From Erysipelotrichaceae bacterium (GTDB lineage: Bacteria; Bacillota_I; Bacilli_A; RFN20; CAG-449), in assembly GCA_015059045.1 (NCBI GenBank), contig SVBD01000012.1, positions 1 to 46,683 on the forward strand: a stretch of 46,683 bases of DNA, in the 5' to 3' direction. The notes beneath the pieces were generated by a model. That model made no database searches and was not told the origin of the DNA. It worked only from the letters and a program-made list of their open reading frames with translations. Positions 16,657-43,406 of the stretch are shown here, piece after piece (position 1 is the first letter of the stretch; every line of letters starts with the position of its first letter). The position numbers were made by a program, and so were the translations under genes.

Positions 16657-19600
16657 TTATTGAGCTGGTTTTTCCCAAACAACAATATTTCCTTCTTCAT
16701 CATAATGCCAGAAGTTGTAATAAATATCAAGTGGGTCAGCTGGATTTTCATATGGATTTACTTCTGAATAAGCATATTTTACTGAACTATTAATTACTTC
16801 TTTACCATCAATTAAAGCATACATTTCTGCTCTAGTTCCATAGAAGTATAAAGACAATGTTTTTCCAGCAGCACATCCGAAGAATGATCTAACGCTAACA
16901 TTTGTAATTGTATTTGAGAAGAAGATAGTTTCTAAATCTGTACAATATCTAAATGTATCAACACCCATACCTGTTACTCCATCTGCAAGAGTAACGCTTG
17001 TTAACATACCACAGTTTTTAAATGCATATCCTGAAATATATCCACCATTAACTGTAACATTTCTAAGAGTATTTGGAACTTGATATAAAATTTCAGAGCT
17101 TACTCCTGTAATTTCGCCATTTTGATTAACATATTCAATATTTTGTCTTACTCCTCCAAGTGCGCCAGAATTTGAAATTGTACCAAACATCCAGCCAAGT
17201 GGATAGTAATTTGATGTATCTTCATAACTCTTAGCTAAACCAACAAATGGAAGAGTTAAGTTTTCTAATGAATTTAATCCTCTTAATCCATCTTGATAAA
17301 TGAATTTAACTCCTTCACCAACAACAAGAGTCTTAATTCTAATTCCAAAGAAACCATTAGTTAAAAGATTACCACCAGTAACTGTTACTGATTCTAGAGT
17401 AAGTGGAACATCATAGAATGTCCATTTATTTCCTTCATATGTTTGTGAATAACATAGATCATTATCTGTATCGGTATTATTTCCAATATCGCCGAAGATA
17501 TATCCTAATGGATATTTAACTTCTGCATCATTAGTTTTAATAGAATCACCGACAAATGGAATTGTAATTGATTTAATTGCAATACATTTCATTAAAGCGC
17601 CATGTCCAATGCTTGTAACACTTGTTGGAATAACGATTTCTTCTAATAATCTACTATTATAGAATGCTCTTTCACCAATAGTTTCAACGCCTTCTTCAAT
17701 TGTGATGCTTGTAACATTATCAAAACTTGTAAATTGATAGCCAATTTCTTTTATAGTGCCAGGAATTACTAGTTCAGTTACTTCGACCCATTCGTTATTT
17801 TCATCTAACAAGAAGAAATGTTGTCCATAGAACATTGGAGTAGAAGTAATATCTTCAAAGTAAATATTAGCCCAATCAGCCATTGTTCCTTTAAAGTAAA
17901 CATTTTTAATATTTTCAGAATAGAATGCAGCGTGTTTAACTTCTTTAACACTTGCAGGAATAGTAACGTTAATTAATGAATCCATATTATAGAATGCACC
18001 TTCATCAATAACTTCTAATCCGTCATCAATAACTAATGTTTCTAATTCATAAAGTTCATTACTTTCACTAGTAAAATAGAAATGAGGAGCATAGTTTGTT
18101 ACTGATTTATTTAATTTTGCCCAATCATTTTCTGTACCTTCGAAAACAACGCAATCACTAGCGGATAAACCTAAAACTACATATTCTAAATCTTTACCTA
18201 AAATAATTTTTACCAAATCCATTCCATCAAATGATCTAGCATAAATTTTACCACTTGCAATTCTAATTGAAATTAAAGTAGTTGGAAGTTTGCTTCCATG
18301 TTGAGCGTAGTTTTCTGCACCGAAATAGTATCCTAAATATGTATGTTCATACTCAATACCATTAGAAATTCCAGTTAATAATTCTAAATATGGTAACGAA
18401 ATATGTACTAAAGAAGTACAACCACTTAATAAATTTATTCCAATTTTAGAATTATCTGGAGCAGTAAAATATTGTAAAGATGTACAGTGGGCAAATGCCT
18501 CAGACATAATTTCTTTAACTCCTTCAGGAATTTTGATATCTTCTAAAGAAGTACACATATAGAATGCTCTCCAACCAATTACTTCAAGAGTACTTGGTAA
18601 AACGATTTCTTTTAATTCATAACATTGTTCAAATGCATCATTACTAATTGTTGTTAAACCTTCAGGTAAAATAACATTGTCTAATAATTCACAACCATTA
18701 AATGCTGAACCTTTAATAGTTAATAAATTTTCATTAAATTCAACGGAAGTTAATTTTACACAAGAAGTAAATGCACTTGCTCCAATTTCAGTTACATTTG
18801 CAGGAACTTTAAATGATTCAAGCGATTTACATAATCCAAATGCATAATCGCCAATTAATTCAACTGTATCAGGTAAAGTAACACTCTTTAACTTTGGACA
18901 ATTAAAGAATGAACTTTTTGGTAATTCAGTTAATTCTGCTGTAACTACAACATTAATAATATTTTGACATTGATAGAATTCTGCGCCTTTAAATGTTCCA
19001 CCAGTAACCACTACTTCTGTAAGTGAATTTGGAATATAGAAAGTACGATAATGAAGACCATCATAACATTGTTCTGTTTTAGTAGCTCCATCAAAATAAG
19101 AGTTACCAAAGATTACACCAAACAAATTAACTCCATCAGTTGTATTATCATCGTTTCTCATACCAACAAAAGGTATTTCCATCTTTTCAATTGAACTACA
19201 ACCATAGAATGCAGCAACACCAATTTCAACGACAGAGTCAGGAACAACTACTATTGTTAATGTAGTTTGATTTGCAAATGCATTTTGTCTAATCTTTTTA
19301 ACCGGTAAGTCATTATGAGTTTTTGGAATCCATAATTCTGTATCAGTACATTCACCCATACCAATTACTTCATAATAAGTTTCATCTTCTGATAATTCAA
19401 ATTCTAAACCGGTAGAATATTCTCTTTCACCACATACACTACAATATTTATCTACATATGTGTGAGGAGCCTTTGGTTCATCTACCTCTAATGTAGAAAT
19501 ATATGTTTCACCATCGTACTCATATGTAGCGGTATATAATCTTACGCCTAATGATGTACAAGTTGGATCAGTAATAACTCCACTTGTTACTTCCATAGCT

Positions 19601-20208
19601 TGAGTAATGACGTGTGTTTCATCATTTTTACATGTTAAAGTTAATGTACATTCATTTTCTTCCCATGCATAGCTAGCTTGGTAGTCATGACCTAATTTTG
19701 TTTCGCCAATAGCTGTTTTTGAGTCAGTATAAGTATTTCCTTCATATTCTAAAGTTGCAGTATATAATACTGAGCCATCCTCTTCACATGTAGGGTCACT
19801 AACTTGAGTAATGACTTCCATCGGTTCTGTAATAATATGTGTTTCATCATTTTTACATGTAAACACTAAATTACATTCATTTCCTACCCATTCATATGAT
19901 TGTGCGTAATCATGACCTAATGCTTCTCCATATTCGAATGTTTCGCTACCTTTTTCTCCACAAGCACATGAATAATAGTAGATAGCCTTTGTCTCACAAG
20001 TTGCTGCATCTTTAAGATATTTTTCTTGTGCGATTTCTTCAGTGAAACTACAAGTATGAACGCTTGTTGAAGGTTCATTTGATGAAGGTTTACCAGAAGA
20101 AGTACCTCCACCAATAATGTCTCCTCCTAAATCACCACATGAGAATAGCGTTAAAGCTCCAAGAGAAAAAAGAGCCGCGCTTAATAAAAAAGGTTTTATC
20201 TTTTTCAT
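16657..20208 (-). CDS. BspA-like leucine-rich-repeat surface lipoprotein
   Basis: The 1183-residue protein starts with a lipoprotein signal peptide whose lipobox ends LFSC, so Cys24 is the anchor. A Ser/Gly/Thr linker follows, then two tandem repeats of about 74 residues (99-172 and 174-248; each holds ECxLxxTCKNDETHxIT) and a CxxC motif, YCSVCGE. From about residue 268 to about 1145 there are many LRR_5/BspA (Treponema pallidum-type) repeats such as IGDYAFGLCKSLESFKVPANVTEI. Such proteins are exposed on the cell surface and in other species bind host proteins or other bacteria; the ligand here is unknown. RBS TAGGAGG precedes ATG at 20208. It is monocistronic, with its own promoter and terminator. 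Confidence 0.9.
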   Translation of the reverse strand: MKKIKPFLLSAALFSLGALTLFSCGDLGGDIIGGGTSSGKPSSNEPSTSVHTCSFTEEIAQEKYLKDAATCETKAIYYYSCACGEKGSETFEYGEALGHDYAQSYEWVGNECNLVFTCKNDETHIITEPMEVITQVSDPTCEEDGSVLYTATLEYEGNTYTDSKTAIGETKLGHDYQASYAWEENECTLTLTCKNDETHVITQAMEVTSGVITDPTCTSLGVRLYTATYEYDGETYISTLEVDEPKAPHTYVDKYCSVCGEREYSTGLEFELSEDETYYEVIGMGECTDTELWIPKTHNDLPVKKIRQNAFANQTTLTIVVVPDSVVEIGVAAFYGCSSIEKMEIPFVGMRNDDNTTDGVNLFGVIFGNSYFDGATKTEQCYDGLHYRTFYIPNSLTEVVVTGGTFKGAEFYQCQNIINVVVTAELTELPKSSFFNCPKLKSVTLPDTVELIGDYAFGLCKSLESFKVPANVTEIGASAFTSCVKLTSVEFNENLLTIKGSAFNGCELLDNVILPEGLTTISNDAFEQCYELKEIVLPSTLEVIGWRAFYMCTSLEDIKIPEGVKEIMSEAFAHCTSLQYFTAPDNSKIGINLLSGCTSLVHISLPYLELLTGISNGIEYEHTYLGYYFGAENYAQHGSKLPTTLISIRIASGKIYARSFDGMDLVKIILGKDLEYVVLGLSASDCVVFEGTENDWAKLNKSVTNYAPHFYFTSESNELYELETLVIDDGLEVIDEGAFYNMDSLINVTIPASVKEVKHAAFYSENIKNVYFKGTMADWANIYFEDITSTPMFYGQHFFLLDENNEWVEVTELVIPGTIKEIGYQFTSFDNVTSITIEEGVETIGERAFYNSRLLEEIVIPTSVTSIGHGALMKCIAIKSITIPFVGDSIKTNDAEVKYPLGYIFGDIGNNTDTDNDLCYSQTYEGNKWTFYDVPLTLESVTVTGGNLLTNGFFGIRIKTLVVGEGVKFIYQDGLRGLNSLENLTLPFVGLAKSYEDTSNYYPLGWMFGTISNSGALGGVRQNIEYVNQNGEITGVSSEILYQVPNTLRNVTVNGGYISGYAFKNCGMLTSVTLADGVTGMGVDTFRYCTDLETIFFSNTITNVSVRSFFGCAAGKTLSLYFYGTRAEMYALIDGKEVINSSVKYAYSEVNPYENPADPLDIYYNFWHYDEEGNIVVWEKPAQ

Positions 20209-20399: not shown

Positions 20400-21692
20400 A
20401 TGACATTTGAAGAACATTTAGAAAAATATTTATCAAAAGAAGAAATTAATTCTTTATTATCTTCTCTAGAAGGTAAAAGTAAAAAATCAATAATCATTAA
20501 CACTAATAAAATTGATGATGATTTTATTTTATCTAAATTTCCTCTTCTTACTCCTCACCCAATCGTAAAGCATTGCTATATTTATGAAGAAGATACATAT
20601 CAACTTGGGAAACATATTTATTTTGAACAGGGCTTATACTATATCTTTGAACCATGTTCAGGACTAGTTAATCATTTTTTAGACGCCAAAGAAAATGATA
20701 TGGTTTTAGATTTATGTGCTGCTCCAGGAGGTAAAACTTCACATCTAGGAATTATTAAAAATAATAAAGGAATTATCGTTAGTAATGAAATTTCTAGAGA
20801 AAGATCTTTAATTTTATCAAGTAATATTGAAAGAATGGGATTTAACAATGTTATTGTTACTAATAATACTATTGATGATTTTAGAAGCTATGAAAACTAC
20901 TTTGATAAAATAATTTTAGATGCCCCATGTTCAGGCTCTGGAATGTTTAGAAAAGAAAGTAAAATGAAAGATGATTGGACTTATAGTAAAGTTACTTCTC
21001 TTTCTGAATTACAAAAAGAATTAATCATTAAAGCCTATTCTTTATTAAAACCAGGTGGAACTTTAGTTTACTCTACTTGTTCTTTCTCTTATGAAGAGGA
21101 TGAAGAAGTTGTTAAATATCTTTTAGAAAAGACAAACGCTAAGTTATCAGAGTTTGAAAATCACGAATTCTACTACCAATCAAATGAAAAAATTGGTATT
21201 CATCTTTTTCCTCATTTATTTCCAGGAGAAGGTCATTATATTTGTAAAATAGAAAAACCATTTGATCCTACTATTAATTTTATTAATAGAAAAATCAAAG
21301 AATCTAATAAATTTGATGATATTAAAAAAATATGTCAAGTAGATGGTTATATCTATAATTTTGAAAATATCTATTATTTACTACCAGAATATTTTGACTT
21401 TAAAAAGTTAAAAATTATTCGTGGAGGATTAAAACTAGGGACTAAAGAAAAATATGGTTTTGAAGTTGATCACGCCTTATCCCATTATTTAGTTAATTAT
21501 CCAAACGAAATCGAATTAAATAAAGACGAATTAGTTTCTTATATTCAAGGTAACTCGTTAAATAAAAATACCAAAGATGGATTACTCCTAGTTAAATATC
21601 AAGGAAATTCCCTTGGATTTAGTAAATCCACTAAAGGAAGACTTAATAATAAATACCCTAAAGGGTTAAGAAAAAACAATATCATATATTAA
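20400..21692 (+). CDS. rsmF: RsmF-like rRNA (cytosine-C5) methyltransferase
   Basis: The 430-residue NOL1/NOP2/Sun methyltransferase is intact: SAM motif LDLCAAPGGKTSHL (about residues 102-115), catalytic/release cysteines in LDAPCSGSGMFRK and VYSTCSFSYEEDE. The C-terminal RNA-binding PUA-like region (GLKLGTKEKYGFEVDHALSHYL is split into conserved blocks) is as in RsmF/YebU and Gram-positive relatives. It probably methylates 16S rRNA; which cytosine cannot be read from the sequence. It contrasts with the degenerate RsmB homologue at 26866-28128. RBS AGAGGA precedes the ATG. Confidence 0.88.
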   Translation: MTFEEHLEKYLSKEEINSLLSSLEGKSKKSIIINTNKIDDDFILSKFPLLTPHPIVKHCYIYEEDTYQLGKHIYFEQGLYYIFEPCSGLVNHFLDAKENDMVLDLCAAPGGKTSHLGIIKNNKGIIVSNEISRERSLILSSNIERMGFNNVIVTNNTIDDFRSYENYFDKIILDAPCSGSGMFRKESKMKDDWTYSKVTSLSELQKELIIKAYSLLKPGGTLVYSTCSFSYEEDEEVVKYLLEKTNAKLSEFENHEFYYQSNEKIGIHLFPHLFPGEGHYICKIEKPFDPTINFINRKIKESNKFDDIKKICQVDGYIYNFENIYYLLPEYFDFKKLKIIRGGLKLGTKEKYGFEVDHALSHYLVNYPNEIELNKDELVSYIQGNSLNKNTKDGLLLVKYQGNSLGFSKSTKGRLNNKYPKGLRKNNIIY

Positions 21693-25828: not shown

Positions 25829-26863
25829 TTAACCTCTTTGATTTTTAGCCCTTAATTGACCACAAGCAGCATCAATATCTGTGCCAAATTCTTTTCTAAT
25901 TGTTGTTGTAACTCCATGTTTCATTAAATAATCCATGAAAGCTTTGACCTTTGAGTTTTCCGCTCTTTGATATCCATGTTCATCAACTGGATTATATGGA
26001 ATCAAATTTACATATGCATAAGTTGGTTTAATTAACTCAACTAATTCTTTCGCACATTCTAAAGAATCATTAACATCTTTTAACATGATGTATTCATATG
26101 TAACTCTTCTATCTGCAAGTTCAATATATTTTTTTACTGCAGGAATTAATACTTCTAAAGGATATGCTTTATTAATTTTCATAATACGATTTCTCAATTC
26201 ATTATTTGGAGCGTGAAGAGAAATTGCTAAATTAATTTGTAATCCTTCTTGACCATACTTAATAATTTTATCTGGAATTCCACAAGTTGAAACTGTAATA
26301 TGTCTAGCGCCAATAGCAAAAGCTTTTTGATCATTTACAATTCTAACAAAATCCATTACATTGTCATAATTATCAAAAGGTTCACCCGTACCCATAACAA
26401 CGACATGAGTTACTCTTTCATTAGATTCTTTTAATAAATCGTTTAAAACTAAAATTTCCCCAACCATTTCATGTGGTAATAAATTTCTTTGTTTTTTTAA
26501 TAAACCTGATGCACAGAATGAACATCCCATAGAACAACCAACTTGGCTTGAAACACATGCAACATTACCATAATTATATCTCATTAAAACTGTTTCAATT
26601 TTTGCCCCATCTTCCATTTCTAATAGAAGTTTAATAGTTCCATCACTTGCAATTTGCTTAATAAATACTTTTGGTTTTTCTAAACAATATTTTTCTTTTA
26701 ATACTTCTCTAAACGCTTTGGAAATATCACTCATTTCATCAAAATCAGTTACTCCCTTTTCATAAATCCAAGTGAAAAGTTGCTTCGCGCGGTATTTTGT
26801 TTGACCTTCTTGAAGCATCAATTCTACTAATTTATCTAAAGTTAATCCATATAGATTAATCAT
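25829..26863 (-). CDS. rlmN: 23S rRNA (A2503-C2)/tRNA methyltransferase RlmN
   Basis: The 344-residue radical-SAM enzyme methylates C2 of A2503 in 23S rRNA and A37 in some tRNAs. The Fe-S motif is CSMGCSFCASG; VVMGTGEPFDNYDNV and ISLHAPNNELRN are family blocks. The second catalytic Cys is in the C-terminal DIDAACGQL. The length is standard. It lies 1 base upstream of prpC. Confidence 0.96.
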   Translation of the reverse strand: MINLYGLTLDKLVELMLQEGQTKYRAKQLFTWIYEKGVTDFDEMSDISKAFREVLKEKYCLEKPKVFIKQIASDGTIKLLLEMEDGAKIETVLMRYNYGNVACVSSQVGCSMGCSFCASGLLKKQRNLLPHEMVGEILVLNDLLKESNERVTHVVVMGTGEPFDNYDNVMDFVRIVNDQKAFAIGARHITVSTCGIPDKIIKYGQEGLQINLAISLHAPNNELRNRIMKINKAYPLEVLIPAVKKYIELADRRVTYEYIMLKDVNDSLECAKELVELIKPTYAYVNLIPYNPVDEHGYQRAENSKVKAFMDYLMKHGVTTTIRKEFGTDIDAACGQLRAKNQRG

Positions 26864-26865
26864 AA

Positions 26866-28128
26866 TTAATTACCTAACTTTCTAAGTCTAGCGTAATAGA
26901 TTCCTTCTCCATTATATTCATATGGGAAAATCATTTGTTCTTCAATTAACCCAAAAGTAGGATGTTCATTAAGGAACCTTCTTACTAATAAATAAGATTC
27001 TTTTTTATTTAATGTTGGAACAATATAATCAAGTTCACCATCATTTTTAATAAATGTGCTTGCTTCTTTTATATATTCATATTGCTCTTGTAATAAAATA
27101 TCAAAATGTTCTTTTTTAAACGAAAGAAGAACTTCTGGTTTTTTTCTAATTAAACCAAATTCACTGTTTTTTGGCATAACGATAACTCGATCATTACCTC
27201 CATCAGTATGAGTACATACAAGATTAATTGGACTTTCAAAAGCTTCAAAAGATTGGAAGCGATATTTAGATACAACTTTTCTTGTATTGTTTAAGTCTTC
27301 TACATTAGATAAAGCAACTCTAACTTTACCTAAATCACAAATTTTAATACATGTATCAATAACAAACGATGGATTAACATCACCAATAATTAAGATCTTT
27401 TCACCTTGATAAATCTTTAAGCCTTCAAGTACTTTTTGTTCGCTTTGATCAAGAACAAAAACTTTTTGATTCATATATAATTCTTCTTCAAATAATTTTT
27501 TATTTCCAACGTAGGAATAACTATTTGAAGTAGTCTTTGTTTTAACAAAAGATGGATGATCAATATCTTTAACTAATAAATCGTTTGCACAAATAGAAAT
27601 TGGAGCGCTTTTTCTACTTGATGAAATTGATTTGTATGCATTTCTTGTTCCAAAATGTTTTCTAATCATTGAAACAAGCCATTCAGGATAAGAATAATTT
27701 AAACTGATTTTCTTAGAAAAATTCTCATTAAAAACTTCTGGTAAACTAGTTACTTTTCCTTTTAGTTCTTTTAGCATAGTAACAATCAAATTTTCTTCAA
27801 TATTACAATTACTATTTCTTAAAGCATCTAAAAGTTCACTTTCAATTTTGACAAAATCAACATTTCTTGCATAACGTAAGAACGCTAAGGAAAGAACTAA
27901 ATAGTCTAAAACTTTTTCTTCTAAAACTACACCTTTTAAGTAATGTTTTATTTCCCAAGCTAAGAAGTAATAACGATTAACAACTGCCTTTAAAGTATCT
28001 TTAATTGATACAATATACATCGAATCTACTTCTTCTGGTCCAATCTTTTTGTTAATTAAGTAACTAAATTTGACTTCATTATTTTTCAATGATTCAAGTA
28101 ATTTTTTGGAATATTCTAAGATATTCAT
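26866..28128 (-). CDS. Degenerate RsmB-family methyltransferase homologue
   Basis: The 420-residue protein sits in the rsmB position before rlmN and has the RsmB layout: a NusB-like helical N-terminus (about 1-130) and a Rossmann C-terminus. It keeps flanking landmarks such as VLDQSEQKVLEGL (223-235), IRKKPEV (327-333) and the final YYARLRK. The functional motifs are gone. The SAM loop (usually CAAPGGK) reads IIGDVNPSF (247-255), the PCSG cysteine motif reads PKNS (319-322), and the YSTCT catalytic-cysteine motif reads YIVPT (368-372). The frame is intact with RBS AGGAGGAG, so it is translated but is unlikely to methylate. It may be an rRNA-binding assembly factor. Confidence 0.85.
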   Translation of the reverse strand: MNILEYSKKLLESLKNNEVKFSYLINKKIGPEEVDSMYIVSIKDTLKAVVNRYYFLAWEIKHYLKGVVLEEKVLDYLVLSLAFLRYARNVDFVKIESELLDALRNSNCNIEENLIVTMLKELKGKVTSLPEVFNENFSKKISLNYSYPEWLVSMIRKHFGTRNAYKSISSSRKSAPISICANDLLVKDIDHPSFVKTKTTSNSYSYVGNKKLFEEELYMNQKVFVLDQSEQKVLEGLKIYQGEKILIIGDVNPSFVIDTCIKICDLGKVRVALSNVEDLNNTRKVVSKYRFQSFEAFESPINLVCTHTDGGNDRVIVMPKNSEFGLIRKKPEVLLSFKKEHFDILLQEQYEYIKEASTFIKNDGELDYIVPTLNKKESYLLVRRFLNEHPTFGLIEEQMIFPYEYNGEGIYYARLRKLGN

Positions 28129-28153: not shown

Positions 28154-28639
28154 TTATTTTTTTAGTAATGAATCAAAACTTTGAGGTTCATCATCTTCAT
28201 CTACTTCAAATTCTTGGAATATATTTCCTGTGAATAATTCATCTTCACTATATTCTACTTCCTCATCATATTCTTCTTCAGATCTTTCATTTTCACTAGT
28301 TAAATATCTAGGATAATTCGAATTGACTCTAGAATAAGAATCTTCTGAATTGAAGTAATTAAAATAAACTGTCGCGTGAATTGAATATTCTTCACTTGAT
28401 TTTAATAATAATTCCGCTAATTGCTTTTGAAATGGACGATATTTTTCATCCATTTCAACTTTGATAATTAGTTGAATTGAAGTTTGTTCATGACCTTTAT
28501 AATAAACAAAAGAATCGTAGCTTGAAAAAACTACTTCTTCTTCACTAGTTTCTAATAAGTTGCTAACTTGAGAATGGATTTTTGCATTTAACTCACCAAT
28601 TAGGAATAAATCTAATCCTGTATATGAAATAATTACCAT
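28154..28639 (-). CDS. DUF1904-like protein with acidic tail
   Basis: The 161-residue protein has a first half that resembles DUF1904, a tautomerase-like small fold, with EVVFSSYDSFVYYKGH in the place of the family's strand and YSIHATVYFNYFNSEDSYSR near its end. This resemblance is by eye and tentative. The last 45 residues are strongly acidic (EEEYDEEVEYSEDE). RBS GGAGG precedes ATG at 28639, and a TATAAT with an AT-rich inverted repeat lies just upstream (28660-28690), perhaps an internal promoter. It stands where def and fmt are found in Bacillus. Confidence 0.5.
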   Translation of the reverse strand: MVIISYTGLDLFLIGELNAKIHSQVSNLLETSEEEVVFSSYDSFVYYKGHEQTSIQLIIKVEMDEKYRPFQKQLAELLLKSSEEYSIHATVYFNYFNSEDSYSRVNSNYPRYLTSENERSEEEYDEEVEYSEDELFTGNIFQEFEVDEDDEPQSFDSLLKK

Positions 28640-43195: not shown

Positions 43196-43400
43196 ATAAA
43201 AAAAGTACCAACAGGAACGATTTCTCGCGGTACCATCCTGATTCAATTTTTAGTAAATTGCTCTTAATTACAACTTTAACGCAGTCAACGTTGGGATTAA
43301 CCAAAATCTAAAAAGTAGCTCGTTAATCTCTTTCGAGTTTTTTCACCAACCAAACCCTCTCTATAGAAATCCAATTAACTTCTCTTTTATCATCGATTAC
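43196..43400 (-). promoter_or_regulatory. T-box riboswitch, alanine specifier
   Basis: On the minus strand the T-box sequence AGGATGGTACCGCG is at 43226-43239. It is followed by a terminator whose stem re-uses GGTACC and ends in T7 (43198-43204). In stem I, GTTAAT pairs with ATTAAC and AAAAG with CTTTT. Between them lies the specifier loop GAGCTA, opposite AGAA, giving the alanine codon GCT at 43317-43319. Uncharged tRNA-Ala would allow read-through into alaS-yqgF-yrzB. Confidence 0.93.
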
Positions 43401-43406
43401 GAATTT

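Follow-up and report, generated by a model that had tools for sequence, protein, structure and literature searches.

RsmB is the 16S rRNA m5C967 methyltransferase, structurally described for the E. coli protein (Fmu; 1sqg and 1sqf). The E. coli enzyme acts early in 30S assembly, and deletion of rsmB leads to accumulation of the 17S precursor (PMC7056703). When E. coli RsmB and RsmD act together, fewer nascent 16S 3′ domains are misfolded, with or without SAM, and the proteins apparently cover the loop of helix 31 (PMC13004024); this SAM-independent effect is that of RsmB and RsmD jointly, not of RsmB alone. METTL15 is also an rRNA methyltransferase that is needed as a protein, its catalysis being dispensable (PMC11197891). 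Both RsmB itself and catalysis-independent rRNA methyltransferases are already known. Nop2 and NSUN4, members of the same superfamily that are found in pre-ribosomal particles, are active m5C methyltransferases of the large subunit. A literature search, with most subscription journals outside it, returned no paper on a naturally dead RsmB that is retained throughout a clade.

The window analyzed here is a stretch of 46,683 nucleotides from an Erysipelotrichaceae bacterium (assembly GCA_015059045.1, contig SVBD01000012.1). Its rsmB-like gene lies in the order gmk-priA-(28154-28639)-rsmB-rlmN-prpC-prkC-rsgA-rpe, which is kept in relatives, and so has the placement between priA and rlmN that is typical of the RsmB orthologous group. 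The reading frame starts with an ATG at 28128, a few nucleotides 3′ of an AGGAGG sequence, and continues for 420 codons without an internal stop. Its product contains both VLDQSEQKVL and IRKKPEV and, over residues 8-397, matches PRK14902, the RsmB model of NCBIfam, with 88.6 bits, below the equivalog cut-off of 319; the match to PF01189 scores 28.4 bits. These data bear out the first-pass annotation, which had described an intact frame with a strong ribosome binding site in the standard rsmB place before rlmN, and a protein with the RsmB layout. Synteny, tree and predicted fold make the window protein an RsmB orthologue. Compared with E. coli RsmB, it lacks the SAM-binding loop and the catalytic cysteines, and its NusB-like domain has diverged past recognition by Pfam. 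The features of the locus are collected in Table 1. Elsewhere in the window, a protein of 1183 amino acids encoded at 16657-20208 (minus strand) carries numerous repeats of the leucine-rich type and a signal resembling that of lipoproteins, and may be a surface protein; a T-box leader is present at 43210-43402 (minus strand; Rfam RF00230, 95.8 bits).

Table 1. Features of the rsmB locus and related genes in the window.
Feature	Position	Strand	Basis
Pseudo-RsmB, almost certainly catalytically dead RsmB orthologue, 420 aa	26866..28128	-	Synteny, NCBIfam RsmB match, AlphaFold2 model with E. coli RsmB as best PDB match, motif loss
N-terminal all-helical domain, residues 1-140, NusB-like by predicted fold, strongly diverged sequence	27709..28128	-	AlphaFold2 helices 3-145; full-length Foldseek match to 1sqg
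Linker/ferredoxin-like region, residues 141-205, conserved, basic	27514..27708	-	
SAM-loop position (CAAPGGK in active RsmB), here GDVNPSF, residues 249-255	27364..27384	-	Conserved Lys in 0/106 dead and 16/16 intact sequences
PC(S/T)G position with catalytic-site Cys, here PKNS, residues 319-322	27163..27174	-	GLIRKKPE after it retained
YSTCT position with nucleophilic Cys, here YIVPT, residues 368-372	27013..27027	-	Tyr, last Thr and following NKKE retained
rlmN, conserved neighbor downstream of dead rsmB, context for orthology	25829..26863	-	
DUF1904-like/tautomerase-fold (predicted) small protein, 161 aa, acidic tail, candidate partner	28154..28639	-	Adjacency, model, DUF1904 matches in relatives, best PDB match 4m1a
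RsmF-like m5C methyltransferase, intact, not RsmB; the genome's only catalytically intact family member	20400..21692	+	

The first-pass annotation had also reported that CAAPGGK, PCSG and YSTCT are replaced by GDVNPSF, PKNS and YIVPT, and this observation extends well beyond the window. We aligned 115 homologues from the window's order with seven references. The window protein contains neither SAM-binding motif I (C-A/S-APG-x-K) nor the catalytic cysteines of PC(S/T)G and TC(T/S), and the losses are common to 106 of 106 aligned homologues from three families (f1, 17 sequences; f4, 75; f5, 14), all from uncultured gut Bacilli of the order. The motif VI Cys is found in none of these 106 sequences and in 16 of 16 intact ones; the motif IV column is without Cys in 102 of the 106, the remaining four carrying a lone Cys. 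Acidic residues at positions 283 and 310 (L065 numbering), which we take to be SAM contacts in the class I methyltransferase fold, are also gone, and the replacements at the SAM loop, the acidic sites and the cysteines vary freely from genus to genus. The alignment did not show SAM-binding residues and a cysteine kept at shifted positions. Because the same losses are seen in all 106 homologues of three families, assembly error or chance is ruled out, and judged by its sequence the window gene almost certainly encodes a catalytically dead enzyme.

Intact motifs were present in all nine homologues from families f2, f6, f7 and f8 of the order and in all seven references. Dead RsmB was also looked for in other parts of the class, and none turned up in 11 further families: their aligned homologues keep the catalytic cysteines in 36/36 cases. 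The window's own family has the gene in 17 of 18 genomes, with open frames in 17/17, and the sole genome without it is 65% complete. A few members of the clade, such as the g35 genomes, G112, G133 and G045, have no clear dead RsmB copy; the protein is therefore not essential in all of them and is dispensable in some. In family f3 of the order, four sampled genomes (G019, G026, G031 and G036) had no clear RsmB homologue. A short (~310 amino acids) intact NSUN-type methyltransferase is encoded by some relatives (L025, L033; G001, G002, G004, G005), including genus g35. The window's genome lacks this short protein, and in g35, which carries it, there is no clear dead copy of RsmB.

In a tree built without the motif columns, all dead sequences fell into one clade, apart from the intact sequences (SH-aLRT 100), and the dead clade was recovered when long branches were left out as well (UFBoot 100/SH-aLRT 100). 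Within the dead group of the first tree, f1 and f4 were clades and f5 nearly so. A 16S tree, built without f6, f7 and f8, for which there was no 16S sequence, placed f1, f4 and f5 together against f2, f3 and sequences from outside the order (89/97). Since the dead proteins form a single clade and the 16S tree groups the same families, these trees demonstrate, at the level of sequence, that catalysis was lost once, in one ancestor of the three families, and that the dead protein was then retained by vertical descent. It was retained under purifying selection: pairwise NG86 dN/dS values for close dead pairs were about 0.03-0.26 and low in both domains, and in most pairs the constraint on the methyltransferase domain equaled or exceeded that on the N domain. 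Invariant residues run across the dead-RsmB families. The earlier suggestion of a retained pseudo-enzyme rather than a decaying gene agrees with the open frames, the single origin, the low dN/dS in both domains and the lack of an intact RsmB in the genome (see below).

We propose that the dead RsmB orthologue is kept for a methylation-free job, as a 30S-assembly factor on helix 31, and we put the probability of this reading at roughly 0.55. Such a function has moderate support from homology and from the published E. coli data; an rRNA chaperone had been raised as a possibility in the first-pass annotation. In the ancestor of the three families, the enzyme lost SAM binding and both cysteines while the protein was retained, and a second, methylation-free job of RsmB would be the most likely reason for its survival. 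At an early stage of 30S assembly, dead RsmB would bind nascent 16S rRNA around helix 31 and keep it from misfolding until ribosomal proteins bind; in most bacteria of the clade, the adjacent DUF1904-like protein (see below) would probably be a partner or modulator. If so, m5C967 should be missing from the 16S rRNA of the clade. The working mode proposed here, in which the protein and not the methyl group aids subunit assembly, is the one seen with human METTL15 and E. coli RsmB/RsmD, but those proteins are active enzymes in nature, whereas the RsmB of this clade has lost catalysis naturally and permanently. Nop2 and NSUN4 differ in that they are large-subunit factors.

The predicted structure is that of RsmB. 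An AlphaFold2 model of the window protein (14-sequence input) had a pLDDT of 91.9 and a pTM of 0.86, and its best PDB matches by Foldseek were E. coli RsmB in the apo form (1sqg; TM 0.78 over 439 columns) and bound to SAM (1sqf; TM 0.77), followed by PH0851 and then by Nop2 in pre-60S particles. According to the model, the full fold of NusB-like domain, ferredoxin-like linker and Rossmann methyltransferase domain appears to be kept. Conservation is highest in the linker/ferredoxin-like region and in the C-terminal half of the methyltransferase domain, and PF22458 (ferredoxin-like RsmF/B domain) was recognized in 15 of 21 dead homologues. The first-pass idea that the NusB-like domain was kept holds for the predicted fold but not for the sequence: Pfam NusB scores 77-87 bits in intact relatives and gave no match in any dead copy scanned, the window protein included, and in most dead copies positive charge was lost, mostly in this domain. 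The median pI is 6.2 for dead copies and 8.5 for intact relatives, with the window protein at 8.3; for RsmF and RlmN the shift is smaller or nil, and in f1 and f4 the linker has remained basic. This acidic shift of the dead copies argues against a straightforward model in which they bind RNA strongly.

These changes bear on the possibility that the fold has been neofunctionalized and no longer binds rRNA, serving instead, for example, in a complex with the DUF1904-like neighbor or in regulation of the priA-prkC operon. The reduced positive charge, the lost NusB sequence identity, the positions conserved in the dead clade only (E355, T306 and aromatic residues, among others) and the new adjacent gene would all fit such a change. 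However, active and dead forms share the R..P(D/E) segment after motif IV, the C-terminal half and the basic linker, as one would predict were the old binding surface still in use, and the place of the gene in an operon among translation genes is unchanged. We consider neofunctionalization unlikely, but it deserves to be kept in mind.

The new neighbor has a predicted tautomerase fold, with 4m1a (DUF1904) as best PDB match. It shares this predicted fold with DUF1904 (PF08921) of the tautomerase superfamily and differs in having an acidic disordered tail and in lacking a Pro next to the initiator Met; the neighbor protein of the window falls below the Pfam cut-off, and 3 of 12 members match PF08921, weakly (best E 4.1e-5). 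Of 59 dead-rsmB loci whose upstream sequence was long enough, 45 have the DUF1904-like gene next to rsmB, and in dead loci with priA detected on the upstream side it sits between priA and rsmB. In contrast, it was found at 0 of 20 intact rsmB loci, 13 of which have priA upstream, a comparison that covers the locus only. The appearance of the gene thus coincides with the loss of catalysis, which makes its product a candidate partner. Going by gene neighborhood, the DUF1904-like protein probably works with or modulates dead RsmB in most bacteria of the clade. A more far-reaching version is that dead RsmB and the DUF1904-like protein constitute a novel complex of two proteins for 30S assembly without methylation, which came into being at the loss of catalysis and replaced m5C967-dependent maturation clade-wide; we regard this version as doubtful. 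In genus g24 of f5 (L314, L316, L317, L318 and L323), a different protein of ~150 amino acids, apparently helical, is encoded directly upstream of dead RsmB. This helical open reading frame was considered as a divergent DUF1904 member and rejected (hhalign probability 0.2%).

The window's genome (1.44 Mb in 33 contigs, 95% complete) contains three PF01189 matches, namely dead RsmB, the enzyme encoded at 20400-21692 (match at 20676-21251) and an RlmD/TrmA-like m5U enzyme. The second had been noted previously as an intact NSUN-family enzyme; it has all motifs and, since it also has the RsmF N- and PUA-like domains, it is RsmF-like and not a second RsmB. The weak third match (C14) was rejected as a second intact RsmB, being judged by sequence an RlmD/TrmA-like enzyme. 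No intact RsmB was found elsewhere in this 95% complete genome, and together with the low dN/dS this speaks against a second intact rsmB that would have left the present gene to drift neutrally. Loss of RsmD, the other enzyme that modifies helix 31, was rejected given RsmD-family matches in 143 of 147 genomes of the order (127 above cut-off). Loss of initiator-tRNA formylation was likewise rejected as a cause, as fmt, which often adjoins rsmB, is present in 138 of the 147.

The target base was read from 16S genes of the order, which gave 40 readable helix 31 sequences from the dead-RsmB families; positions 967 and 968 are, by our assignment from conserved context, those of E. coli. Pattern and match searches of the window's own assembly found no 16S gene. 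C967 is retained in 37 of the 40 sequences and is A in three (G049, G108 and G057), so that mutation of C967 across the whole clade can be dismissed. These three genomes still carry an intact dead-RsmB frame, which we count as evidence that the methylation target is not needed for retention. In 28 of the 40 sequences, A968 is changed to U with C967 retained. A class-wide search for the exact patterns found U968 in 14 genomes, 11 from the dead clade, three without an RsmB-level match and none with active RsmB. A968 was found in 49 genomes, 46 of them with an RsmB-type match (Fisher p 2e-11, ignoring genome kinship), where RsmB status was inferred from match score for most of the 46 and many assemblies were without 16S. 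An association of U968 with the absence of active RsmB is suggested by these numbers.

Retention of C967 in most genomes would also fit a heteromer like that of METTL3 and METTL14, with dead RsmB as the non-catalytic subunit directing the RsmF-like enzyme to C967, and an intact RsmF-like enzyme is indeed encoded 5 kb away in the window and in most clade genomes. However, five genomes that are at least 94% complete (G088, G069, G073, G102 and G097) keep dead RsmB without an RsmF-level match, which argues against its being an obligate RsmF subunit, and the three A967 genomes keep it as well. This arrangement therefore seems improbable. It is very improbable that the protein is still an enzyme, either binding SAM and target through shifted residues or using the old pocket for other chemistry: the Rossmann-like core is predicted to be intact, but the SAM loop, both cysteines and the acids for ribose and adenine are gone together, the replacements vary freely between genera, and a Cys is present in only 4/106 sequences at motif IV and in 0/106 at motif VI. 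Slow decay, with the gene kept by chance or operon polarity, can practically be set aside. RsmB is dispensable, several Mollicute groups have lost it (PMC4014445), and a neighboring family of the order yielded no RsmB, but in the dead clade the frames are intact in more than 100 species over deep divergence, dN/dS is low (about 0.03-0.26), the predicted fold is intact (pLDDT 92) and residues are invariant across families.

For annotation, the label "16S rRNA m5C967 methyltransferase" on this gene would be incorrect throughout an entire clade of gut bacteria. What keeps rRNA methyltransferases conserved, the methyl group or the part played by the protein in assembly, is a long-standing question, and engineered dead mutants are the usual approach to it. 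In these bacteria evolution appears to separate the two, since more than 100 species keep RsmB without its chemistry, three of them even without a C at the target position.
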